Part shown: positions 2,000 through 18,803 of the stretch, in pieces
How the letters are laid out: the number at the start of each line of letters is the position of its first letter
How positions within the stretch are numbered: the stretch's first letter is position 1
Assembly (NCBI GenBank): GCA_003158745.1
Contig: PMLC01000087.1
Coordinates: 41,408-105,407 of the forward strand
From: Acidobacteriota bacterium
GTDB lineage: Bacteria; Acidobacteriota; Thermoanaerobaculia; Thermoanaerobaculales; Thermoanaerobaculaceae
Direction: 5' to 3'
Length of the DNA: 64,000 nt
The notes under the pieces: generated by a model
What the model was told of the DNA's origin: nothing
The model's input: the letters and a program-made list of their open reading frames with translations, nothing else
The model's database searches: none
Made by a program: the position numbers and the translations under genes

Positions 2000-2287
2000 A
2001 TGAACAAGTCAGAGATTGCCGTGAAACTGGCGAAGAAGGTTGGCCTGACGCACGCCAAGGCGGCGGATGTCGTGGACGCGATCTTCAACGCACACAAGGG
2101 CATTGTCGCGGTTGAGCTGGTGGCCGGGCGCAAGGTCACAGTCCCCGGCTTCGGCACGTACGCGACGCGGAAGCGGTCGTCGCGGCAGGGCCGCAACCCG
2201 GCCACTGGGAAGACGATCACCATCTCGGCCCGCAAGTACGTCACGTTCAAGGCAGGCAAAACACTGAAGGAGAAGCTGGCCAAGTAG
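2000..2287 (+). CDS. HU family DNA-binding protein (copy 1)
   Basis: MNKSEIAVKLAKKVGLTHAKAADVVDAIF...GRKVTVPGFGTYATRKRSSRQGRNPATGKTITI; canonical HU/IHF motif; SD aaaggagg upstream. Confidence 0.95.
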   Translation: MNKSEIAVKLAKKVGLTHAKAADVVDAIFNAHKGIVAVELVAGRKVTVPGFGTYATRKRSSRQGRNPATGKTITISARKYVTFKAGKTLKEKLAK

Positions 2288-2309
2288 GCCGATGGAGCAA
2301 GGAGGAACG

Positions 2310-2597
2310 ATGAACAAGACCGAGTTGATCACCAAGCTCGCGAAGAAGACGGGTCTCACCCAGGCCAAGGCGGCCGAGGCCGTAGACGCGATCTTCAACG
2401 CCAACAAGGGCCTCATCGCGATCGAACTGGGCGCCGGCCGCAAGGTCACGCTGCCCGGCTTCGGCGGTTTTTCCGTCCGCAAGCGCTCGGCTCGGTCGGG
2501 CCGCAACCCGGCCACGGGCGCGACGATCAGGATCCCCTCTCGAGCGTACCCGGCTTTCAAGGTCGGGAAGACCCTCAAGGAAAAGGTAGCCAAGTAG
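2310..2597 (+). CDS. HU family DNA-binding protein (copy 2)
   Basis: Start at 2310 after aaggagg (ORF track starts at 2292). MNKTELITKLAKKTGLTQAKAAEAVDAIF...GFGGFSVRKRSARSGRNPATG. Confidence 0.95.
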   Translation: MNKTELITKLAKKTGLTQAKAAEAVDAIFNANKGLIAIELGAGRKVTLPGFGGFSVRKRSARSGRNPATGATIRIPSRAYPAFKVGKTLKEKVAK

Positions 2598-2624
2598 GCC
2601 TCCGGTTTCCGGCTTGAGTTGACC

Positions 2625-2650
2625 TCTGGGCGCGGGGAACCGCGCCCAGA
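2625..2650 (+). terminator. Hairpin terminator candidate after the HU pair
   Basis: TCTGGGCGCGG-GGAA-CCGCGCCCAGA, perfect 11-bp stem with GNRA tetraloop, followed by moderately T-rich TTGCATTCTCTCCATTTC. Confidence 0.65.
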
Positions 2651-2913
2651 TTGCATTCTCTCCATTTCGGCGAACCCCCCGCGGTTACTGACCGCGGATG
2701 TGGTTGGTCGCTGGGGATCGGCCGCCCGCACCGTCCGTCGCCGGGGGTTGACTTTTGCCGCCGGGAAAGGTACGCGCCTCCGATCGGAACCGGTCCAGCG
2801 GATTGAGATCGAATTTCCGTCGGATCGGTTCCGTCAGCTCGGCCTCGAATCACGCTAAGCACAAGATATGGTGGTGGATCGCCGTTGGGGACCCAAGATC
2901 TTGCGGTGGCCCC

Positions 2914-2942
2914 TTGACAAGCCCTCCAGGCCGCCCTAGATT
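2914..2942 (+). promoter_or_regulatory. Putative sigma70-type promoter of nrdJ
   Basis: TTGACA (2914-2919), 17-nt spacer, TAGATT (2937-2942). Confidence 0.7.
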
Positions 2943-2952
2943 CGCAGAGCAA

Positions 2953-2973
2953 AGTTCAAGTAGTACTTGAACT
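2953..2973. promoter_or_regulatory. 21-bp perfect palindrome, candidate operator for nrdJ
   Basis: AGTTCAAGTA-G-TACTTGAACT, 10-bp perfect arms with 1-nt centre, between the -10 box and the SD/start codon of nrdJ. Confidence 0.65.
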
Positions 2974-2993
2974 CTAGGGAAGGGGGATCTGGG

Positions 2994-5726
2994 ATGTCCG
3001 CGGAACCTTCATCACTTGCCGTCGCGGCTTCTCGCCGGCCGGATGCCCAGGGCGTTTCCGTACGACGGTTGTTCACAAATGGGGAGCACTATCCCTTTGA
3101 CATGGTGCGGTGGGAGCGCCGGACCGCGAGGATTACCGGGAGCGACGGTGCTGTGGTCTTCGAGCAGACTGACGTCGAGGTTCCCGAATTCTGGTCGCAG
3201 ACCGCGACCAATATCGTCGCCCAGAAGTACTTTCACGGACACATAGGCACGCCTGAGCGGGAGAACTCCGTCCGGCAGTTGATCGGCCGCGTTGTTCACA
3301 CAGTCGTCGAGTGGGGTCACACGGGCCGCTACTTTGCGGACGTTGAATCGGAACGCGCCTTCGAGGACGAACTCACCTACCTTCTGTTGAACCAGATGGT
3401 GTCGTTCAATTCGCCGGTGTGGTTCAACGTCGGCATCGAGCCCAACCCGCAGTGCTCCGCCTGCTTCATCAACTCCGTGAAAGACTCGATGGAGTCGATC
3501 CTCGATCTCGCGAAGACCGAGGCGATGCTCTTCAAGTACGGCTCGGGCACGGGCTCCAACCTCTCGGCGTTGCGCTCCTCGCGTGAGCCGTTGGCCGGAG
3601 GCGGAACCGCGTCCGGTCCGGTCTCGTTCATGCGCGGGTTCGACTCATTCGCCGGTGTGATCAAGTCCGGTGGGAAGACCCGTCGGGCTGCGAAGATGGT
3701 GATCCTCAACGTTGAGCACCCCGATATTGAGCACTTCATCCGCTGCAAGGCCGAGGAGGAGAAGAAAGCCCATGTCCTGATCTCGGCCGGATACCCCGCG
3801 GGGTTCGATCAGGAAGGCAGCGCGTACGAGTCGATCCAATACCAGAACGCCAATCACTCGGTCCGCGTGACCGAAGAGTTCATGCGGGCAGTCGAGGACG
3901 ACGGGTGGTGGGAGACGCGGGCCGTGACCTCTGGGGAGGTCGCGGGGCGTTTCCGTGCGCGTGAGTTGATGCACACGATTGCGGAAGCGACCTGGGTGTG
4001 CGGCGACCCCGGGATCCAGTACGACACCACGATCAACCGGTGGCACACCTGCAAGAACACCGCCCGCATCAATGCCAGCAATCCATGCTCGGAGTACATG
4101 TTCCTCGACGACACGGCCTGCAATCTCGCGTCGCTCAACCTGATGCGGTTCGTCGACGAGAAAGGGACCTTCCTCACCGAGGCCTTCCGTCATGCAGTGG
4201 ACGTGATGATACTGGCGCAGGAGATCCTGGTCGACTTCGCCCACTACCCGACGCCGAGGATCGCCGCCAACTCGCATGAGTTTCGCCCGCTCGGCCTCGG
4301 CTACGCCAACCTCGGCGCGCTGCTGATGTCCGACGGGCTGCCCTACGACTCCGCAGAGGGAAGGGCGTACGCCGGGGCGATCACCGCGTTGATGTGCGGT
4401 GAGGCCTACCTCGCGTCAGCGCGCATCGCGGAGGCCATGGGTCCCTTCCCCGGCTACCCGGTCAACCGCGAGTCGATGCTCGAGGTGATCGCAATGCACC
4501 GCGACGCGGCCCACCGCATTCCCACCCGCGGCGTGACGCCGGATCTGCGGAAGTCGGCTACCGAGGTGTGGGACTCGGCGCTCGAGCACGGCAGGGCATT
4601 CGGGTACCGCAACTCGCAGGTGACCGTGCTCGCACCGACCGGTACGATCGGCTTCATGATGGACTGCGACACCACCGGGATCGAGCCGGACCTTGCCCTC
4701 GTGAAGATCAAGCGCCTCGTGGGCGGCGGCACGATCAAGATTGTGAACCAGACGGTGCCGCGCGCCCTCGCCAAACTCGGCTACGACGAACCCAACCGCA
4801 CCGTGATCCTCAGGCACCTCGAGACCACAGGGACCATCGAGGGCGCACCTGGCCTGAAGGACGAGCACCTCCCTGTGTTCGACTGCGCCTTCAAGGCGGT
4901 GTCAGGGTCCCGCTTCATCTCGCCACTCGGCCACCTGAGAATGATGGGTGCGGCACAACCGTTCCTGTCGGGCGCGATCTCGAAGACTGTCAATGTTCCC
5001 GAAGAGACCGGACCGGAAGAGATCGAGAAGCTCTACGTCGAGGGGTGGAAACTCGGCCTCAAGTCGGCCGCTGTGTACCGCGACAACTGCAAGGGCTCGC
5101 AACCGCTCGCAGCGGCTGGCGAGAAGGTCGCAGTTTCGGCGTTCCAGCCGGTGCGGCGGAAGCTGCCCGACGAGCGCGTCGCAATCACCCACAAGTTCTC
5201 GGTCGAAGGGCAAGAAGGGTACGTCACCGTCGGCCTGTACGAGGACAGGAAGCCCGGCGAGCTGTTCATCACGATGGCCAAGGAGGGTTCCACGCTCTCC
5301 GGAGTGATGGACGCCTTCGCAACCGCGATCTCGCTGACGCTCCAGTACGGCGTCCCGCTCGAGTTTCTCGTCAACAAGTTCTCACACGTGCGCTTTGAGC
5401 CGGCGGGTTGGACCAACAACCCCCAGATTCCCTACGCGAAGTCGATCATTGACTACATCTTCCGGTGGCTGGCATCGAAGTTCCTGGCTCCGGAGGATCA
5501 GGCGGCCGTTGGCGTGCAGCCGGTCGCTGCGGGCGAGGACAAGCCACAGGCCGCACTGCCTGGCCCACGGCAGCAGGCGCTGCCGGGCCTCGAGAGCGGC
5601 GAGATCTCGCACCTGTTCGTCAACCAGGCGGACGCACCACCATGTCCGACCTGCGGCATGATGATGGTCCGGGCGGGTGCCTGCTACAAGTGCGGCAACT
5701 GTGGGACGGTTCACGGCTGCAGCTGA
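2994..5726 (+). CDS. nrdJ: Vitamin B12-dependent ribonucleoside-diphosphate reductase (class II)
   Basis: QCSACFINSVKDSMESILDLAKTEAMLFKYGSGTGSNLSALRSS, NPCSEYMFLDDTACNLASLNL, C-terminal CPTCGMMMVRAGACYKCGNCGTVHGCS. Start ATG 2994 preferred over TTG 2967, which lies inside the palindrome. Confidence 0.95.
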   Translation: MSAEPSSLAVAASRRPDAQGVSVRRLFTNGEHYPFDMVRWERRTARITGSDGAVVFEQTDVEVPEFWSQTATNIVAQKYFHGHIGTPERENSVRQLIGRVVHTVVEWGHTGRYFADVESERAFEDELTYLLLNQMVSFNSPVWFNVGIEPNPQCSACFINSVKDSMESILDLAKTEAMLFKYGSGTGSNLSALRSSREPLAGGGTASGPVSFMRGFDSFAGVIKSGGKTRRAAKMVILNVEHPDIEHFIRCKAEEEKKAHVLISAGYPAGFDQEGSAYESIQYQNANHSVRVTEEFMRAVEDDGWWETRAVTSGEVAGRFRARELMHTIAEATWVCGDPGIQYDTTINRWHTCKNTARINASNPCSEYMFLDDTACNLASLNLMRFVDEKGTFLTEAFRHAVDVMILAQEILVDFAHYPTPRIAANSHEFRPLGLGYANLGALLMSDGLPYDSAEGRAYAGAITALMCGEAYLASARIAEAMGPFPGYPVNRESMLEVIAMHRDAAHRIPTRGVTPDLRKSATEVWDSALEHGRAFGYRNSQVTVLAPTGTIGFMMDCDTTGIEPDLALVKIKRLVGGGTIKIVNQTVPRALAKLGYDEPNRTVILRHLETTGTIEGAPGLKDEHLPVFDCAFKAVSGSRFISPLGHLRMMGAAQPFLSGAISKTVNVPEETGPEEIEKLYVEGWKLGLKSAAVYRDNCKGSQPLAAAGEKVAVSAFQPVRRKLPDERVAITHKFSVEGQEGYVTVGLYEDRKPGELFITMAKEGSTLSGVMDAFATAISLTLQYGVPLEFLVNKFSHVRFEPAGWTNNPQIPYAKSIIDYIFRWLASKFLAPEDQAAVGVQPVAAGEDKPQAALPGPRQQALPGLESGEISHLFVNQADAPPCPTCGMMMVRAGACYKCGNCGTVHGCS

Positions 5727-6700: not shown

Positions 6701-6743
6701 GATGCCTGTGGGAGATGACGTGGCGCTGAAGGAGAGTTGTGCC

Positions 6744-8495
6744 ATGGACGTGCTCAGGCGACCGAGGGCAACGTGGTGCAAGCGCCCCGGTTCCGTTGTC
6801 CGCGGGGCGATCGCCGTGGCGGCCATCACGACATTGCTCTTCCTGTCCGCCGGCATCGACGTTTGTTCTGCGAGCGGGGCCGGGGGCTCAGGAGCCGTCG
6901 CGTCTGCGGCTCCCGCAGCGACGGCCGTCGGACTCGACATCCTCCGGGTTGGCGGGAATGCCGTGGACGCCGCCGTGGCCACGGCCCTCGCGCTCGCGGT
7001 GGTCCACCCGACGGCAGGTAACCTCGGCGGCGGTGGGTTCGCGGTCGTGCGAATCGGCGGCCGGGTCGTGGCTCTGGATTTTCGCGAGACCGCGCCGTCA
7101 GCCGCAACAGCGGGGATGTTCCTAGGACCGGACGGTAAGCCCGATCCCGAGCGATCGCTCGTGGGTCCCCTTGCTGCCGGCGTGCCCGGCTCGCCGGCGG
7201 GCCTGTTCGAGTTGCACCGTCGCTTCGGCTTTCTCCCTTGGCGCAACGTGGTCGCCCCCGCCGTTCGCCTCGCGGCAGAGGGCTTCGCGGTGACGCCTCG
7301 CCTGAGCCGGAGCATCGCGGCCGCGAAGCCTCTCCTGACGCGCTTCTCCGAGACCGCTGCGGTCTGGCTCCCATCCGGACAGGCGCCGCCGCCGGGAACG
7401 ATGCTGAAGCTGCCCGCCCTCGCCGCGACGCTTCGCTCGTATGCGGCTCGAGGGCCGAAAGCGCTCAGTGCGGGCCCGGCCGCCGATGCGATCGAGCGTG
7501 CCGCTCGAACCCGCGGCGGTATCCTCACCGCGGCTGATCTGGCAGCGTACCAGCCGGTGTGGCGGGAGCCGGTGCTGTTCACGGCATTCGGGTGGAACGT
7601 CGCCTCCATGCCGCTGCCCTCGTCGGGGGGGATCATCCTGGCCGAGACGACAGGCATGCTCGAGCGCCTTGGTTGGAGTCGCCGGCCCGTCGGGTCGGTT
7701 GACCGCATCCACCTGCTGGTGGAGACGTGGAGGCGAGCGTTCGCGGACCGCTTCCTTCTGGGCGACCCAGCCACAGCGCTTGCCGGCCCAGCACAGCTTC
7801 TCGATCCCGGCTGGCTCGACCGTCGCGCCACCGAGATCGACGGCATGAGGGCAACGGCGTCCGAAACCGTGCGGCCCTGGCACGCGCCGAGAGCACACGA
7901 GTCGCGCGAGACGACGCACCTGTCGGTCGTGGACGGCGCGGGCGATGCGGCGAGCCTGACGACGACGCTCAACGGCAGTTTCGGTTGCGGCTTGCTCGTG
8001 CCCGAGATCGGGATCCTCCTGAACAACGAGATGGACGACTTCGCAGCCGCTCCGGGTTTGTCCAACCTGTACGGGCTGGTGCAGGGCGAGGCCAATGCAG
8101 TCGGACCGGGCAAACGGATGCTCTCGTCGATGACGCCGACGGTTGCCTGGCGCGCCGGCGAGGTTCTGGTCCTCGGTTCGCCCGGCGGATCGCAGATCCC
8201 GACCGCCACCGCCCAGGTCCTCCTGAACGTGATCGTGGATGGAGAAACGCTCCGAGCGGCGGTCGACCGGCCGAGGGTTCACCACCAGTGGTTCCCGGAC
8301 GTTCTCGTGGCGGAGGAGGGTGCTCTCTCCGAGCCGGTGCGCGCGGACCTCATCCGGCGAGGGCATCTTTTGCGGCAGGCCGAAGGCATCGGCGAGGTGC
8401 ACGCCGTCCGGCGCAAGGAGGGCGGGGTGCTGGAGGCGGTGGCCGACCCGCGCGGTCCCGGCGCCGCAGGTGTGACCGACAGGCAGGAGCGATAG
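6744..8495 (+). CDS. ggt: Gamma-glutamyltransferase
   Basis: GGNAVDAAVATALALAVVHPTAGNLGGGGFAVV, THLSVVDGAGDAASLTTTLNGSFGCGL (catalytic Thr), MSSMTPT-like segment, SPGGSQIPTA; N-terminal signal sequence. Start at ATG 6744. Confidence 0.93.
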   Translation: MDVLRRPRATWCKRPGSVVRGAIAVAAITTLLFLSAGIDVCSASGAGGSGAVASAAPAATAVGLDILRVGGNAVDAAVATALALAVVHPTAGNLGGGGFAVVRIGGRVVALDFRETAPSAATAGMFLGPDGKPDPERSLVGPLAAGVPGSPAGLFELHRRFGFLPWRNVVAPAVRLAAEGFAVTPRLSRSIAAAKPLLTRFSETAAVWLPSGQAPPPGTMLKLPALAATLRSYAARGPKALSAGPAADAIERAARTRGGILTAADLAAYQPVWREPVLFTAFGWNVASMPLPSSGGIILAETTGMLERLGWSRRPVGSVDRIHLLVETWRRAFADRFLLGDPATALAGPAQLLDPGWLDRRATEIDGMRATASETVRPWHAPRAHESRETTHLSVVDGAGDAASLTTTLNGSFGCGLLVPEIGILLNNEMDDFAAAPGLSNLYGLVQGEANAVGPGKRMLSSMTPTVAWRAGEVLVLGSPGGSQIPTATAQVLLNVIVDGETLRAAVDRPRVHHQWFPDVLVAEEGALSEPVRADLIRRGHLLRQAEGIGEVHAVRRKEGGVLEAVADPRGPGAAGVTDRQER

Positions 8496-8615
8496 AGAGC
8501 CACCGGCACGTTCAGGCCGCGCCGCGCGGCAACACGGCGCCGCCTTTGCTGTGCGCTACAATGCGCTGGGCGCGGCTGCCCGAACCCCTGCCGTGTCGCT
8601 CCCGATGTAAGGAGG

Positions 8616-11078
8616 GTGGTGTTGTCGACGACGTTTCCCGGCCATGCAGTTTCCCCGCAGGCCTTTCGTGAGCGGTTCGTCTACTACCTGAGGTACTTGC
8701 GGGGTCTCGAAGTCACGGAGGCCACGCCGGCCGATCACCTGGCCGCACTCCAGCTGACAATCCGCGAGTCCCTGATCGACAGCGCTATTGCTACACATCG
8801 TGCTATGAGCAGCCAGGACCCGAAGACCGTCCACTACTTGTCACTCGAGTACCTCCTGGGGCGGCTGGTGGACAACAACCTGATCGCGACTGGACTTCGA
8901 GACGTTGCGAGCCAGGCAATGGCCGAACTCGGGCTCGACCTCGACCGGCTGGTGCAGGAGGAACCCGACCCGGGTCTTGGGAACGGAGGCCTGGGGCGCC
9001 TCGCGGCCTGCTTTCTCGATTCGCTCGCGACGCTCGACTACCCTGCTTTCGGCTACGGGCTGCGCTACGACTTCGGGATCTTCCGGCAGGAATTCGTTGC
9101 AGGCTGGCAGCGCGAACGCCCCGACACGTGGTTGAAAGGCGGCTACTCGTGGGAGATCGCCCGCCCGGACCTGACCGTGACGGTCCGACTCGGGGGGACC
9201 ATCGAAGCGAAAGGCGGCGACGGGAACCGTCGTCCGTTGTGGACGGGATCACACGTGCTCTACGGCGTCCCTTACGACGTGCTCGTCGCTGGCTTCGACA
9301 CGACAACCGTCTCGACGTTGAGGCTCTGGAAGGCCGAGGCTCCCGATTCCTTCGACTTCGACACCTTCTCCAAAGGCAACTTCCTGAGCGCCGTGGCTGG
9401 TCGCGAAAAGGCCGAGGCCGTCACCAAGGTGCTCTACCCGTCCGATGAGGCCGAAGCCGGACGCGAACTGCGCCTCACGCAGGAGTACTTCCTGGTGGCG
9501 TGCTCCGTGGCCGACATCGTACGCCGGTTCCGCGAGCGCCACGGCGCGGCCTGGGACCTCTTCCCCGAGAAGGTCGCGATCCAGCTCAACGACACACATC
9601 CGGCCCTCACGATCTCGGAACTGATGCGTGTGCTGGTTGACGAGGAAGGACTGCCCTGGGAGCGGGCGTGGGCGATCACCCACGGGACGTGCGCCTACAC
9701 CCAGCACACGGTGCTTGCCGAGGCGCTGGAAACCTGGCCGGTCGCGCTGATGCAGCGCCTGATACCGCGCCACGTCGAGATCATCTTCGACATCAACAAG
9801 CGCTTTCTCGACCAAGTGGAGACGCTCGAACCCGGGGACCGCGAACGCCTGCGCCGGATCTCGCTCGTGTACGAGGACGGAGACCGCCGGTTCCGGATGG
9901 CGCACCTGGCGATTGTCGGCTGCCACCGCGTCAACGGCGTTGCGCGCCTTCACACCGACCTGCTCAAGAGGCAGGTGTTTCCTGACTTTGCGGAGATGTG
10001 GCCCGAGAAGTTCATCTCGATCACGAACGGCATCACACCGCGGCGATGGCTCCTGGCGTGCAACCCGCACCTCGCGGGTGCGATCTCTGCTCGGATCGGC
10101 GACGGCTGGGTGCGGGATCTCGACCGTCTCATCGAGCTTCGGCAGTACGCCGACGACCCGGAATTCCAGGACGAGTTTCTTGCCATCAAGTACGCAAACA
10201 AGGTGGCTCTTGCGGCTACGGTGAATTATCTCTGCGGGGTGGTGGTCGACCCCGACTCGATGTACGACGTACAAGTAAAGCGGATGCACGAGTACAAGCG
10301 GCAGTTGCTCAACGCCATGCATATCATCGCGCTATACCGGCGGATCAAGACGCACCCGGGCGCCGCCTTCACGCCACGCACGTTCATCTTCGGCGCCAAG
10401 GCTGCGCCGGCCTACCGCATGGCGAAGCTCGTGATCCGCCTCATCAACGGAATCGCGGAGAGGGTCAACGCGGACAAGGAGATGAACGGGAAGCTGAAGG
10501 TCGTCTTCATCCCCGACTACAGGGTGACCATCGCAAGCCTTGTCATTCCTGCTGCGGACCTCTCGGAACAGATCTCGACCGCCGGGATGGAAGCTTCCGG
10601 AACCGGGAACATGAAACTCGCCCTCAACGGTGCGCTCACGATCGGGACGCTCGACGGCGCGAACATCGAAATCAGGGACGCCGTGGGCGACGAGAACATC
10701 TTCATCTTCGGTCACGCCGCCGAACAGGTCGCGGCGATGAGGGGTCCCGGACATTACAACCCGTGGGACTACGTCCGAACCGACCCTGAGCTCGCTGATG
10801 TCCTCGAGACGCTGCGTGACGGTGTCTTCGCCGACGGCGACGGACCGGCGTTGCGGGCGATCTGGTCCGGGCTGATGGAGCACGGTGACCAGTTCATGCA
10901 TGTGGCCGACTTTCGCTCCTACGTGGACACACAGGCGCGGGCCGGCGATCTGTTCACCGATCGCCGCGCCTGGGCGGCTAAGGCGATCCGGAACGTGGCA
11001 TCGATGGGGTACTTCTCGTCGGACCGTGCGATCCGCGAATACGCCCGCGAGATCTGGAACCTCACGCCCCTTCGGTAG
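8616..11078 (+). CDS. glgP: Glycogen/alpha-glucan phosphorylase
   Basis: VHYLSLEYLLGRLVDNNLI, EPDPGLGNGGLGRLAACFLDSLATL, VKRMHEYKRQLLNAMHII, EASGTGNMKLALNGALTIGTLDGANIEI. Confidence 0.96.
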   Translation: MVLSTTFPGHAVSPQAFRERFVYYLRYLRGLEVTEATPADHLAALQLTIRESLIDSAIATHRAMSSQDPKTVHYLSLEYLLGRLVDNNLIATGLRDVASQAMAELGLDLDRLVQEEPDPGLGNGGLGRLAACFLDSLATLDYPAFGYGLRYDFGIFRQEFVAGWQRERPDTWLKGGYSWEIARPDLTVTVRLGGTIEAKGGDGNRRPLWTGSHVLYGVPYDVLVAGFDTTTVSTLRLWKAEAPDSFDFDTFSKGNFLSAVAGREKAEAVTKVLYPSDEAEAGRELRLTQEYFLVACSVADIVRRFRERHGAAWDLFPEKVAIQLNDTHPALTISELMRVLVDEEGLPWERAWAITHGTCAYTQHTVLAEALETWPVALMQRLIPRHVEIIFDINKRFLDQVETLEPGDRERLRRISLVYEDGDRRFRMAHLAIVGCHRVNGVARLHTDLLKRQVFPDFAEMWPEKFISITNGITPRRWLLACNPHLAGAISARIGDGWVRDLDRLIELRQYADDPEFQDEFLAIKYANKVALAATVNYLCGVVVDPDSMYDVQVKRMHEYKRQLLNAMHIIALYRRIKTHPGAAFTPRTFIFGAKAAPAYRMAKLVIRLINGIAERVNADKEMNGKLKVVFIPDYRVTIASLVIPAADLSEQISTAGMEASGTGNMKLALNGALTIGTLDGANIEIRDAVGDENIFIFGHAAEQVAAMRGPGHYNPWDYVRTDPELADVLETLRDGVFADGDGPALRAIWSGLMEHGDQFMHVADFRSYVDTQARAGDLFTDRRAWAAKAIRNVASMGYFSSDRAIREYAREIWNLTPLR

Positions 11079-14552: not shown

Positions 14553-14580
14553 TTGACAACATGGATTTGTGCCTTATCTT
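14553..14580 (+). promoter_or_regulatory. Putative sigma70-type promoter
   Basis: TTGACA (14553-14558), 16-nt spacer, TATCTT (14575-14580). Confidence 0.4.
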
Positions 14581-14912
14581 TTAGATGAGTATGGACACGG
14601 TCGTCTCGCCTGATCAGCCTCCAAGTAGTACCAACCGCGCGAAGCGTTTTTCCGCGGTCGCAGGGAGAGTATCCCCAAAAGCGGCCGCGGTTGCTTTTCC
14701 CACCACGACCACGCACGCCACGGTAGCGTCGGGCTCACTCCCGGCTCTGCGGCGGAGCTCTGGCGGGACTCGAGCCTAAGGGGACGAGAGCCATGCTCCC
14801 GTGCCCCTCGAGGGCCTTTCCGCCGGGCCGGCTCCGGGTGGTCCATAGAGCAAGAGAGCAGAGAGAGTCTGAGTCCCTTTTTGCCCAGACCCTGACCAAA
14901 GAAGGGTGTGAC

Positions 14913-14930
14913 ACCTCCCGTTTCGGAGGT
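14913..14930 (+). promoter_or_regulatory. Hairpin enclosing the Shine-Dalgarno of the lysine aminomutase gene
   Basis: ACCTCC-CGTTTC-GGAGGT; GGAGGT lies 8 nt before the ATG at 14939. Confidence 0.5.
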
Positions 14931-14938
14931 AGGAGATC

Positions 14939-16102
14939 ATGAGAGAGAACACGGTTCCCGCGGACCCATTGATAGCCAGCGCGCGGCGTGAGGAGATCTG
15001 CCGGATCTTCGGCGAGTCCTTCGACCCCGCGCGCTGGAACGACTGGCGATGGCACATGCGCCATCGCTTCATCAAACCGGAGCAGTTCGAGAAGCTGCTC
15101 CGCCTCACCGCATCCGAGCGGCGGGGCCTTGCGATGACGCAGGAGAAGTTCGCGGTGGCGGTGACGCCACACTTCGCCGAGCTCATCGACCCCGACGACC
15201 CGAACTGCCCGATCCGCCGGCAGGTCGTCCCCCGCGAGGAGGAGCTGCTCGTGGGGCCGGGTGACATGACGGACCCGTGCGGCGAGGACCACGACTCGCC
15301 GGTGCCGGGCCTGGTTCACCGCTACCCGGACAGGGTGCTGCTGCTGGCGCTCGACACCTGCGCCGCCTACTGCCGCTACTGCACCCGCTCGCGCCTCGTC
15401 AACCAGGGGGAACTCGACGCCCTTCCGCGACGGGTCGATGCAGTGATCTCGTACCTGGAGGAGCACACCGAGGTGCGCGACGTCCTGCTCTCGGGCGGCG
15501 ACCCGCTGCTGATGTCCGAGGACCGTCTCGACGAGATCCTCGGCCGGATCCGCGCGATCCCGCACATCGAGTTCGTGCGCATCGGGTCACGCGTGCCCTC
15601 GTTCCTCCCGCAACGCATCACGCAGGAGCTGGTCAGGGTGCTTCGCAACAACCGGGTCTGGCTGTCGCTGCACTTCTGCCACGCACGGGAGGTCACGCCC
15701 GAGGTGGCGAACGCGTGTGACATGCTGGCCGACGGCGGCATTCCGCTCGGGGCACAGACCGTCCTGCTGAAGGGCATCAACGACGACGTGCAAACCCTGA
15801 AGGACCTCTTCCACGCGCTGCTCAGGATCCGCGTCCGGCCGTACTACCTGTACCAGTGCGACCCCGTGGTCGGAACCGGCCACCTCCGCACCAGCGTGCA
15901 CAGGGGGATCGAGCTCATCTCCGGGCTGCGCGGGCACACTACCGGGTATGCGGTCCCGACGTATGTGATCGACGCGCCCGGAGGAGGCGGAAAGGTGCCG
16001 CTCCAGGCAGAGACCATCCTGTCGTACGAGAACGGTCAGGTGGCGCTGCGCAACTGGGAGGGGTTCACCTACTCCTACGTGGACCCGGCGGAGCACCCCT
16101 AG
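14939..16102 (+). CDS. kamA: KamA family radical SAM protein, predicted lysine 2,3-aminomutase
   Basis: DTCAAYCRYCTRSRLV (CxxxCxxC), LSGGDPLLM, YYLYQCDPVVGTGHLRT and YVIDAPGGGGK with both Asp residues that bind the lysine side-chain amine in characterised enzymes. Confidence 0.92.
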   Translation: MRENTVPADPLIASARREEICRIFGESFDPARWNDWRWHMRHRFIKPEQFEKLLRLTASERRGLAMTQEKFAVAVTPHFAELIDPDDPNCPIRRQVVPREEELLVGPGDMTDPCGEDHDSPVPGLVHRYPDRVLLLALDTCAAYCRYCTRSRLVNQGELDALPRRVDAVISYLEEHTEVRDVLLSGGDPLLMSEDRLDEILGRIRAIPHIEFVRIGSRVPSFLPQRITQELVRVLRNNRVWLSLHFCHAREVTPEVANACDMLADGGIPLGAQTVLLKGINDDVQTLKDLFHALLRIRVRPYYLYQCDPVVGTGHLRTSVHRGIELISGLRGHTTGYAVPTYVIDAPGGGGKVPLQAETILSYENGQVALRNWEGFTYSYVDPAEHP

Positions 16103-16106
16103 GAGC

Positions 16107-17093
16107 ATGGGGCTCTCGATCGGGCTCTGTTACGACCTGAAGGACGACTATCTCAGGGAAGGGTTCTCGCCCGAGGACGTGCTCGAGTTCGACAGCGAGG
16201 AGACCGTCGCAGGGCTCGAAGCTGCGATGGCCGGGCTCGGCCATTCGACCGAGCGTATCGGGCGCGGCCGCGAGCTCGCCCGCCGCTTCGTCGAAGGCGA
16301 GCGGTGGAAGCTGCTGTTCAACATCTGCGAGGGCGTGTGGGGGCGCTCGCGCGAGGCCCAGGTCCCGGCATTGTGCGAGCTCTTCGACCAGCCGTACACC
16401 TTTGCCGACCCCCTGACCTGTGCCATCACGCTCGACAAGGCGGTGGCCAAGAGGATTGTGCGTGACCACGGATTGGCAACCGCCCCGTTCTCCGTCGTGA
16501 GCTCGCCGGACGAAGCGGTATCCGTCCAACTCCCCGCACCGTTCTTCCTCAAGCCGGTCGCGGAGGGAAGCTCCAAGGGGGTTACCGGCCGGTCGCTGGT
16601 GCGTGAGCGCCGGGACCTCGCCTCCGCCTGCAGGACGCTGCTCGGGCAGTTCAGGCAGCCGGTGCTCGTGGAGGCGTTTCTGCCCGGACGCGAGGTGACG
16701 GTCGGGATCGTCGGGCACGATTCCACTGCGCGCGTCTTCGGTGTCATGGAGGTCTCGTTCACCGACCGGGCTGAGACGCTCGCCTACACCGCCCTCAACA
16801 AGGAGGAGTACCAGGACCGGGTCGCCTATCGCCTGGTGAGCGGCGAGCCACTCGCGGAGCAAGCGCACGACGTTGCACTCGCTGTCTTCCGCGCGCTCGG
16901 ATGCCGGGACGCCGCACGGGTGGACCTGCGGTGCGACGCGACGGGTCGTCTGAACTTCCTCGAGGTGAACCCACTGCCCGGGATCAACCACGTCCGGTCG
17001 GACCTCCCGATCATGGCGCGTCTCGGCGGGACCTCGTACCAGGAGCTGATCGGGTCGATTATTGATTCCGCACGTTCGAGGTACGGTCTGTGA
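16107..17093 (+). CDS. ATP-grasp ligase, D-alanine--D-alanine ligase family (first copy)
   Basis: FFLKPVAEGSSKGV, VLVEAFLPGREVTVGIVG, AARVDLRCDATGRLNFLEVNPLPGI. Confidence 0.88.
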   Translation: MGLSIGLCYDLKDDYLREGFSPEDVLEFDSEETVAGLEAAMAGLGHSTERIGRGRELARRFVEGERWKLLFNICEGVWGRSREAQVPALCELFDQPYTFADPLTCAITLDKAVAKRIVRDHGLATAPFSVVSSPDEAVSVQLPAPFFLKPVAEGSSKGVTGRSLVRERRDLASACRTLLGQFRQPVLVEAFLPGREVTVGIVGHDSTARVFGVMEVSFTDRAETLAYTALNKEEYQDRVAYRLVSGEPLAEQAHDVALAVFRALGCRDAARVDLRCDATGRLNFLEVNPLPGINHVRSDLPIMARLGGTSYQELIGSIIDSARSRYGL

Positions 17094-17280
17094 GCCGACA
17101 GCCGATGGCCGCTAGCCGGCAGTTTGTGCCATCGCGACGCCAGACCTTTGCGTCGGCCGGCCGCGCGTGTCCCGGCCGTCATCACAGCGGATCGGGGACT
17201 GTCAGGTGTGAGCTGTCAGCTGTCGGCCGGGTCTTCGGGGTTCCGGGGTTCGGGCTCTGGTTGTCGTGGCGGCTGTGAGC

Positions 17281-18261
17281 ATGCTGCGCGTGGCGGTGGT
17301 CCATACCGCAGTGGACATTGAGGACGATCCGTCGACCGCCGACGTCCTCGACCAGGTTCGTCTGTTCAAGCAGGGACTGGCCGCACTGGGCGTCCGGCAC
17401 ACCACCATCGCCGTTCGGGATGGCCGCGTGTGGAAACATGCCGCAACGCTTGCCGGTGCGGTTGTGTGCAACCTCCTGGAGGCACCGCCCGGGCGTCCTC
17501 AGCTCCACGCCGCGGCCACTGCCGCCCTCGAAATTCTGGGCGTGCCTTTCACCGGCTCCTCGGCGAGCGCGCTCTGGCTGACGACAGACAAGCTCGCGAC
17601 GCGGGCCGTGCTCTCGAGCGAGGGGCTGCCCGTCGCGGCCGGCGGGCGCCTGGACCCGGAGCGGCCGCGGCTGCTGGACCGCGTCCCGCCGCCATGGATC
17701 CTCAAGCCCGCATGGGAGGACGCCTCGGTCGGCCTGGAGGGCAACCCGGTGTGCTCCGCCGCGGCCGAGGCGGTGGAACGCGGGCGATCTCTCTCGCTCC
17801 GCTTCCCCGGTCAGCCGGTCCTGCTCGAGCACTTCCTCCCCGGCCGGGAGTTCAACGTCTCGCTGCTGGCCTCGCCGCAGGGCGCAACAGCACTGCCGGT
17901 GGCGGAGATCGCGTTCGTGGGCTTCCCGCCCGGAGTGCCTGCGCTCGTCGGCTACGAGGCGAAGTGGGCGAGTGGCTCGTTCGAGGAGACTCACACGGTC
18001 CGCCAGTTCCCGGGCGGGGATGACGGACCGCTTCTCGCGCGGATTCGGGAGCTGGCGCTGGCGTGCTGGGACCCCTGCGGCCTCGCTGGGTATGCACGGG
18101 TGGATTTTCGGCTCGACGAGACAGGAGCGCCCGTGATCCTTGAGGTCAACACCAACCCGTGCCTTTCCGCGGACGCGGGGTTTATGGCCGCCGCGACCCA
18201 CGGCGGGCTGTCGGTCGTCGACGTGGTGGAGCGGATCCTGGTGGCAGCCACGAGCCGCTGA
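17281..18261 (+). CDS. ATP-grasp ligase, D-alanine--D-alanine ligase-like (second copy)
   Basis: PWILKPAWEDASVGLEGN, VLLEHFLPGREFNVSLLAS, YARVDFRLDETGAPVILEVNTNPCLS. Start ATG 17281 chosen. Confidence 0.87.
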   Translation: MLRVAVVHTAVDIEDDPSTADVLDQVRLFKQGLAALGVRHTTIAVRDGRVWKHAATLAGAVVCNLLEAPPGRPQLHAAATAALEILGVPFTGSSASALWLTTDKLATRAVLSSEGLPVAAGGRLDPERPRLLDRVPPPWILKPAWEDASVGLEGNPVCSAAAEAVERGRSLSLRFPGQPVLLEHFLPGREFNVSLLASPQGATALPVAEIAFVGFPPGVPALVGYEAKWASGSFEETHTVRQFPGGDDGPLLARIRELALACWDPCGLAGYARVDFRLDETGAPVILEVNTNPCLSADAGFMAAATHGGLSVVDVVERILVAATSR

Positions 18262-18317
18262 GCCCTGCGCTACTGGTGGTACGCTTGTAATGCAGCGAAT
18301 GCCATAGTGGAGGAACT

Positions 18318-18803
18318 GTGAACATCCGCACTGACTTGCGCCCCGAGGACCGCACCCCGCTCGAAAAACTCCTACGCGACACCGGCTTTTTCAACCCGCA
18401 GGAGCTGGAGGTGGCACTCGAGCTCGTGGACGACCGCCTCGCCCACGGCGAGAAGAGCCACTACCGGTTCCTGGTTCTCGAAGACGGCGACGAGGTGGTC
18501 GGCTACGGGTGCTGGGGGCCGATCCCCGGCACCGTCGCCTCCGCTGATTTCTATTGGCTCGCCGTTCACCCGGAGCGGCAGGGGAAGGGGCTCGGCCGGG
18601 CGTTGTTGGACGCGGCCGAGACCTGGATCGCTCGCGAGGGGCGCACTCGCGTGTACCTCGAAACCTCAACCAGGCCGCAGTACGTTCCCACGAGGGCTTT
18701 CTACCTCCGTTGCGGCTACGGGATCGCCGCCGAGCTGCCCGACTTCTACGCACCCGGCGACGGCAAAGCGATTTTCCTGAAGATCCTCCCGCGCGTGCAC
18801 TGA
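18318..18803 (+). CDS. GNAT family N-acetyltransferase
   Basis: YWLAVHPERQGKGLGRALLDAAETWIAREG (acetyl-CoA-binding motif A); GTG start with ggagga SD. Confidence 0.88.
   Translation: MNIRTDLRPEDRTPLEKLLRDTGFFNPQELEVALELVDDRLAHGEKSHYRFLVLEDGDEVVGYGCWGPIPGTVASADFYWLAVHPERQGKGLGRALLDAAETWIAREGRTRVYLETSTRPQYVPTRAFYLRCGYGIAAELPDFYAPGDGKAIFLKILPRVH

Follow-up and report, generated by a model that had tools for sequence, protein, structure and literature searches.

What might a bacterium make from genes for a predicted lysine 2,3-aminomutase (KamA), two ATP-grasp ligases (L1 and L2), and a GNAT acyltransferase that follow one another on the chromosome? The question is raised by a 64,000-nucleotide stretch of DNA, hereafter the window, from a 3.7-Mb Acidobacteriota MAG. 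All four open reading frames were confirmed on one strand, as the initial annotation had described them (Table 1), including the 4-nt gap between the kamA stop, which ends at 16102, and the L1 start at 16107. The L2 start is uncertain, being either GTG at 17266 or ATG at 17281, and a clear Shine-Dalgarno (SD) sequence precedes neither. A gamma-glutamyltranspeptidase gene (6702-8495) lies 6 kb upstream of the module.

We hypothesize that all four proteins belong to one cytoplasmic pathway. KamA would convert l-lysine to l-beta-lysine, and L1 and L2 would each form one ATP-dependent amide bond via an acyl-phosphate, as in d-Ala-d-Ala ligase (Ddl), resulting in a small beta-lysine-containing di- or tripeptide. 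Acetylation of one amine of this peptide by GNAT would yield a soluble, less charged, polyamine-like N-acetyl peptide. The acetylation could be undone in those genomes that encode a fused GNAT/acetylpolyamine-amidohydrolase-like protein. The balance tips slightly toward the four genes encoding such a route to an acetylated beta-lysine peptide, with substrates, step order, and product as predicted here. A beta-lysine peptide finished by acetylation had also been proposed in the initial annotation; the conserved module, the active-site residues, and the protein folds speak for it, whereas the ligation order, the partners, the acetylation site, and the role are what we infer.

Table 1. Positions of the module genes and leader elements in the window and of fusion genes at three other loci
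Sequence	Feature	Position	Strand	Size	Basis or remark
Window	Promoter-like element TTGACA-16-TATCTT	14553..14580	+		Consensus scan; upstream of leader and kamA
Window	Apparently leaderless small ORF, candidate leader peptide	14591..14779	+	62 codons	MDTVVSPDQPPSS...GGTRA
Window	Candidate hairpin ACCTCC/GGAGGT over kamA SD site	14913..14930	+		Consensus fold
Window	KamA, predicted lysine 2,3-aminomutase (radical SAM, PLP)	14939..16102	+	387 aa	Profile matches, alignment, residue invariance
Window	L1, Ddl-fold ATP-grasp amidoligase	16107..17093	+	328 aa	Profile matches, alignment, AlphaFold model
Window	L2, divergent Ddl-fold ATP-grasp amidoligase	17266..18261	+	331 aa	Profile matches, alignment, AlphaFold model
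Window	GNAT acyltransferase, 2r7h family	18318..18803	+	161 aa	Profile match, alignment; good SD (GGAGGAACT)
L145	GNAT-deacetylase fusion	8585-10372	-		Inside module operon
L163	GNAT-deacetylase fusion	7913-10159	-		Inside module operon
L213	GNAT-deacetylase fusion	2247-4031	+		Inside module operon

Both ligases match Dala_Dala_lig_C in Pfam/NCBIfam searches, L1 with 100.7 bits and L2 with 63.4 bits, and score far under every NCBIfam cutoff for Ddl. Their AlphaFold models (pLDDT of 95.2 in each case) have Ddl as top PDB matches, with TM scores of about 0.7 to 0.8. Besides the fold, the ATP-grasp catalytic residues are common to Ddl, L1, and L2, with equivalents of DdlB K97, K144, E180, E187, K215, R255, D257, E270, and N272 kept in both ligases. 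The d-Ala pocket, however, is altered. S150 of DdlB is replaced in L2 by Ala (46/48) or Gly (2/48), Y216 by Trp (48/48), and L282 by Gly (48/48), so that the L2 pocket, judged from the alignment, is no longer that of Ddl. In L1, position 150 stays Ser or Thr, 216 is variable, and 282 is mostly Asp. In a quick tree, whose deep forks are weak, L1, L2, and Ddl branch separately, which gives both ligases the look of distinct partners of long standing. The genome also encodes a separate true Ddl (contig C53) with a typical GGRSGEHEVS start, scoring 214.7 bits versus 102 and 64 for the ligases. We therefore rejected the option that L1 or L2 stands in as the cell's Ddl, a caveat of the initial annotation. 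In a plasmid search, the only matches were distant ATP-grasps of rhizobia (32-37%), and KamA was not found near them. On rhizobial symbiotic plasmids, a distant L1 relative (34%; L237, 7773-8783, pNGR234a) sits amid insertion sequences, likewise with no KamA close by.

A wall modification was the other option of the initial annotation. The Ddl fold of both models would suit ligases whose beta-lysine peptide is incorporated into an envelope polymer such as peptidoglycan and, in a last step, acetylated. In a paper on a lichen Nostoc operon, modification of peptidoglycan peptides is guessed, without test, for its second Ddl-like ligase (PMC5987646). We regard a cell wall function as unlikely, given the lost pocket residues and the true Ddl elsewhere in the genome. 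In line with the initial annotation, no murein gene was seen beside the window's module, and a search for extra pathway genes among 122 neighbor proteins of the module revealed no family that clearly recurs. In addition, M. xanthus with an insertion in the tandem Ddl-like MXAN_4097 showed normal growth and morphology (PMC9108774), a comparison that assumes kinship with the module.

GNAT belongs to Acetyltransf_1 (Pfam/NCBIfam) and, from its sequence, retains the Q-G-x-G-x-G acetyl-CoA motif. Its closest solved structure, 2r7h, is named merely "putative D-alanine N-acetyltransferase," which counts against the proposed pathway. An AblB identity was rejected, as the AblB models gave no match to GNAT in Pfam/NCBIfam searches. 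With the AblA/AblB pathway to the osmolyte N-epsilon-acetyl-beta-lysine, the module has in common a lysine 2,3-aminomutase, a GNAT, and a predicted acetylated beta-lysine product. It differs by two additional amidoligases and by a different, shorter GNAT, and the view that it is unlike this classical route was upheld.

In three loci (L145, L163, and L213), L2 is followed by a fusion protein that carries a GNAT-like domain at its N terminus besides a Hist_deacetyl domain. Next in line is the module GNAT, which in L163 is joined to the end of the fusion. The deacetylase motifs RPPGHH and DxDxHHGNG are intact, and the nearest solved relatives are acetylpolyamine amidohydrolases, from which the module-locus deacetylase differs by the attached GNAT-like domain and by the ligase genes alongside. 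It is absent beside the window's own module, and the window's genome contains distant deacetylases alone, away from the module (30-34% identity). Of the independent hints to the module product, the fusion is the strongest, and it points to an acetylated, polyamine-like amine.

A neighborhood survey, as called for in the initial annotation, revealed that the four genes form a module conserved in many soil bacteria. KamA was matched in 16 of the 17 genomes searched of the window's family, and in the fetched loci of this family the ligases come after KamA. All module genes were on one strand in 83/83 fetched loci with at least two of them. With K, 1, 2, and G denoting KamA, L1, L2, and GNAT, the gene orders were K-1-2-G (25 loci), 1-2-G-K (9 loci), 1-2-G (6 loci), K-1-2 (3 loci), 1-2-K (2 loci), ligase-ligase-K (3 loci), and K-1 (28 loci), in addition to K-1-2-[GNAT-deacetylase]-GNAT (2 loci) and the same layout without KamA in view (1 locus); these counts take in close relatives and therefore overstate independent events. 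Twenty-six of the 28 K-1 loci are cyanobacterial; contig ends may have truncated the remaining ones, L109 and L228. The module occurs in Acidobacteriota, a deltaproteobacterial MAG, Krumholzibacteria, Omnitrophota, and Cyanobacteria. The differing gene orders, and the scatter of loci across many family codes and phyla, show that the module has been maintained repeatedly.

Co-occurrence was evaluated in 199 Acidobacteriota genomes at thresholds of E<=1e-25 for GNAT and E<=1e-60 for KamA. Both proteins were present in 31 genomes, GNAT only in 4, KamA only in 12, and neither in 152 (Fisher p=3e-22, phylogeny ignored). Five of the six 1-2-G genomes without an adjacent KamA have KamA elsewhere, and none was found in the sixth (G257). 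Genome G042 contains L1, L2, and GNAT in the absence of a close KamA, and for this reason beta-lysine may not be obligatory. KamA by itself does not mark the module, and module-linked and unlinked copies are intermixed in the KamA tree. Verrucomicrobial KamAs (L067-L111; 54-60% identity) have no ligase or GNAT genes nearby.

Known antibiotics include ATP-grasp ligases and beta-lysine, and occurrence in cyanobacteria is patchy (4/194 sampled genomes). Both would fit a specialized bioactive metabolite, such as an antimetabolite peptide, with GNAT serving self-protection. This is quite unlikely in our judgment, as KamA is nearly fixed in the window's family and no exporter, regulator, or NRPS is recurrent among the 122 neighbor proteins.

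KamA, which shares 96% identity with its counterpart on JAIQFQ010000001, contains LAM_C and Radical_SAM domains (Pfam/NCBIfam). Its top model is TIGR03820 (AblA), whose equivalog cutoff it fails to reach (457.2 versus 525.4 bits). This shortfall may arise because the structural-zinc ligand Cys268 of 2a5h is Asp in KamA and the C-terminal tail is absent. Alignment to 2a5h confirmed that the side-chain Asp pair of lysine 2,3-aminomutase, D293 and D330, is kept, as had been noted from the sequence. In 27 diverse module KamAs, down to 41% identity, the CxxxCxxC cluster Cys, the PLP Lys (K337 equivalent), and the equivalents of R134, D293, and D330 are invariant; the lysine-pocket roles considered here were Asp293 and Asp330 for the epsilon-amine and Arg134 for the carboxylate. 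A different KamA substrate, which the initial annotation named as a refuting condition, is disfavored by the invariant pocket. If the aminomutase used another amino acid, or the ligases worked without beta-lysine, a different acetylated peptide would be made. The low score, the missing Cys268 and tail, and the variability of L1 at Y216 are compatible with this option, but it is made quite improbable by the invariant D293, D330, R134, and K337 equivalents and by the lower scores that the Glu- and Arg-aminomutase models give KamA. Beta-lysine formation for EF-P modification (EpmAB), with the ligases incidental, is highly improbable: although KamA is the sole copy in its genome and the leader ORF has a conserved PP motif, the genome lacks EpmA (the top TIGR00462 match is LysS, below cutoff), the EpmB model scores lowest on KamA among full-length KamA-family models, and linkage to ligases and GNAT is constant.

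For an acetylated beta-lysine peptide, the likeliest role is that of a compatible solute or stress metabolite, which we suggest tentatively because of the analogy to N-epsilon-acetyl-beta-lysine. Elsewhere, ablA is found under Na+ riboswitches (PMC9337991), which we count in favor of this role. We also count in its favor that a cation-chloride cotransporter and two channels of the MscS-like type flank the module at L145. Against it, such an osmotic flank was seen in this one locus only, and nothing osmotic is recurrent. A comparable logic underlies the osmolyte N-acetylglutaminylglutamine amide (NAGGN), where ATP-grasp ligation and a GNAT result in an acetylated dipeptide solute. In that system, GNAT and ATP-grasp are one protein, encoded beside an asparagine-synthase-like enzyme, whereas the window has GNAT and ATP-grasps as separate genes, plus KamA, and no GNAT-ATP-grasp fusion. 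If the proposed pathway is real, an abundant soil phylum and filamentous cyanobacteria would make a new beta-amino-acid peptide family from a radical-SAM product. Ddl relatives would have been retuned to new substrates, and such ligases would be misannotated as cell-wall enzymes in many genomes. Comprising just four genes, the pathway is directly testable, and its simpler KamA-ligase form is available in culturable Nostoc.

In filamentous cyanobacteria, KamA is mostly 71-77% and L1 62-69% identical to the window's proteins, and no L2 was found in the five cyanobacterial genomes searched. Because the cyanobacterial KamA and L1 nest within the window's KamA and L1 clades in our trees, both genes were most likely gained by transfer. 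The retention of KamA and L1 without L2 also means that an L1-only product must make sense. A SET-domain gene adjoins KamA in 17 Nostocales loci (10310-10756 in L053 and 16 more), usually between KamA and L1, and its product possibly N-methylates lysine or the pathway product. The cyanobacterial KamA-ligase form was already noted in 2018, in a report on a lichen Nostoc operon of LAM, SET, and a type-3 Ddl designated "MXAN_4097-like amidoligase" (PMC5987646). As given there, KamA also adjoins a Ddl-like ligase, but L2 and GNAT are lacking, unlike in the window's module, and our KamA-SET-L1 loci, compared by gene content, agree with the operon. This paper was the single match in our literature searches on KamA with ATP-grasp or beta-lysine ligases. 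A widespread and as yet undescribed class of N-acetylated beta-lysine peptides, with a short form (KamA and L1, often SET) in filamentous cyanobacteria and a new leader control in the window's family, is conceivable, although we place it somewhat below an even chance. The MXAN_4097-like amidoligase family was reportedly named in a 2009 amidoligase survey by Iyer et al., in which part of the module neighborhood may already have been catalogued.

The region upstream of kamA was also analyzed. Rfam gave no match at E<=1 to the leader (14553-14938), and a known riboswitch was rejected. The consensus scan found one promoter-like element, compared with 0.2 expected; its -35 box is invariant and its -10 box well kept among relatives. 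The small ORF starts about 10 nt past the -10 box, and its N terminus, (M/V)(E/D)...(D/E)xPPS, is kept across the window's family. Substitutions at the three codon positions numbered 160/128/417 in codons 1-13, a strong bias toward the third position, versus a flat 247/213/211 downstream. Covariation was unusable on the hairpin among close relatives because its arms are nearly invariant. The conserved leader with its candidate SD-masking hairpin offers a lead for kamA control, and the CCTCC arm was also detected in two distant loci, L047 and L057.
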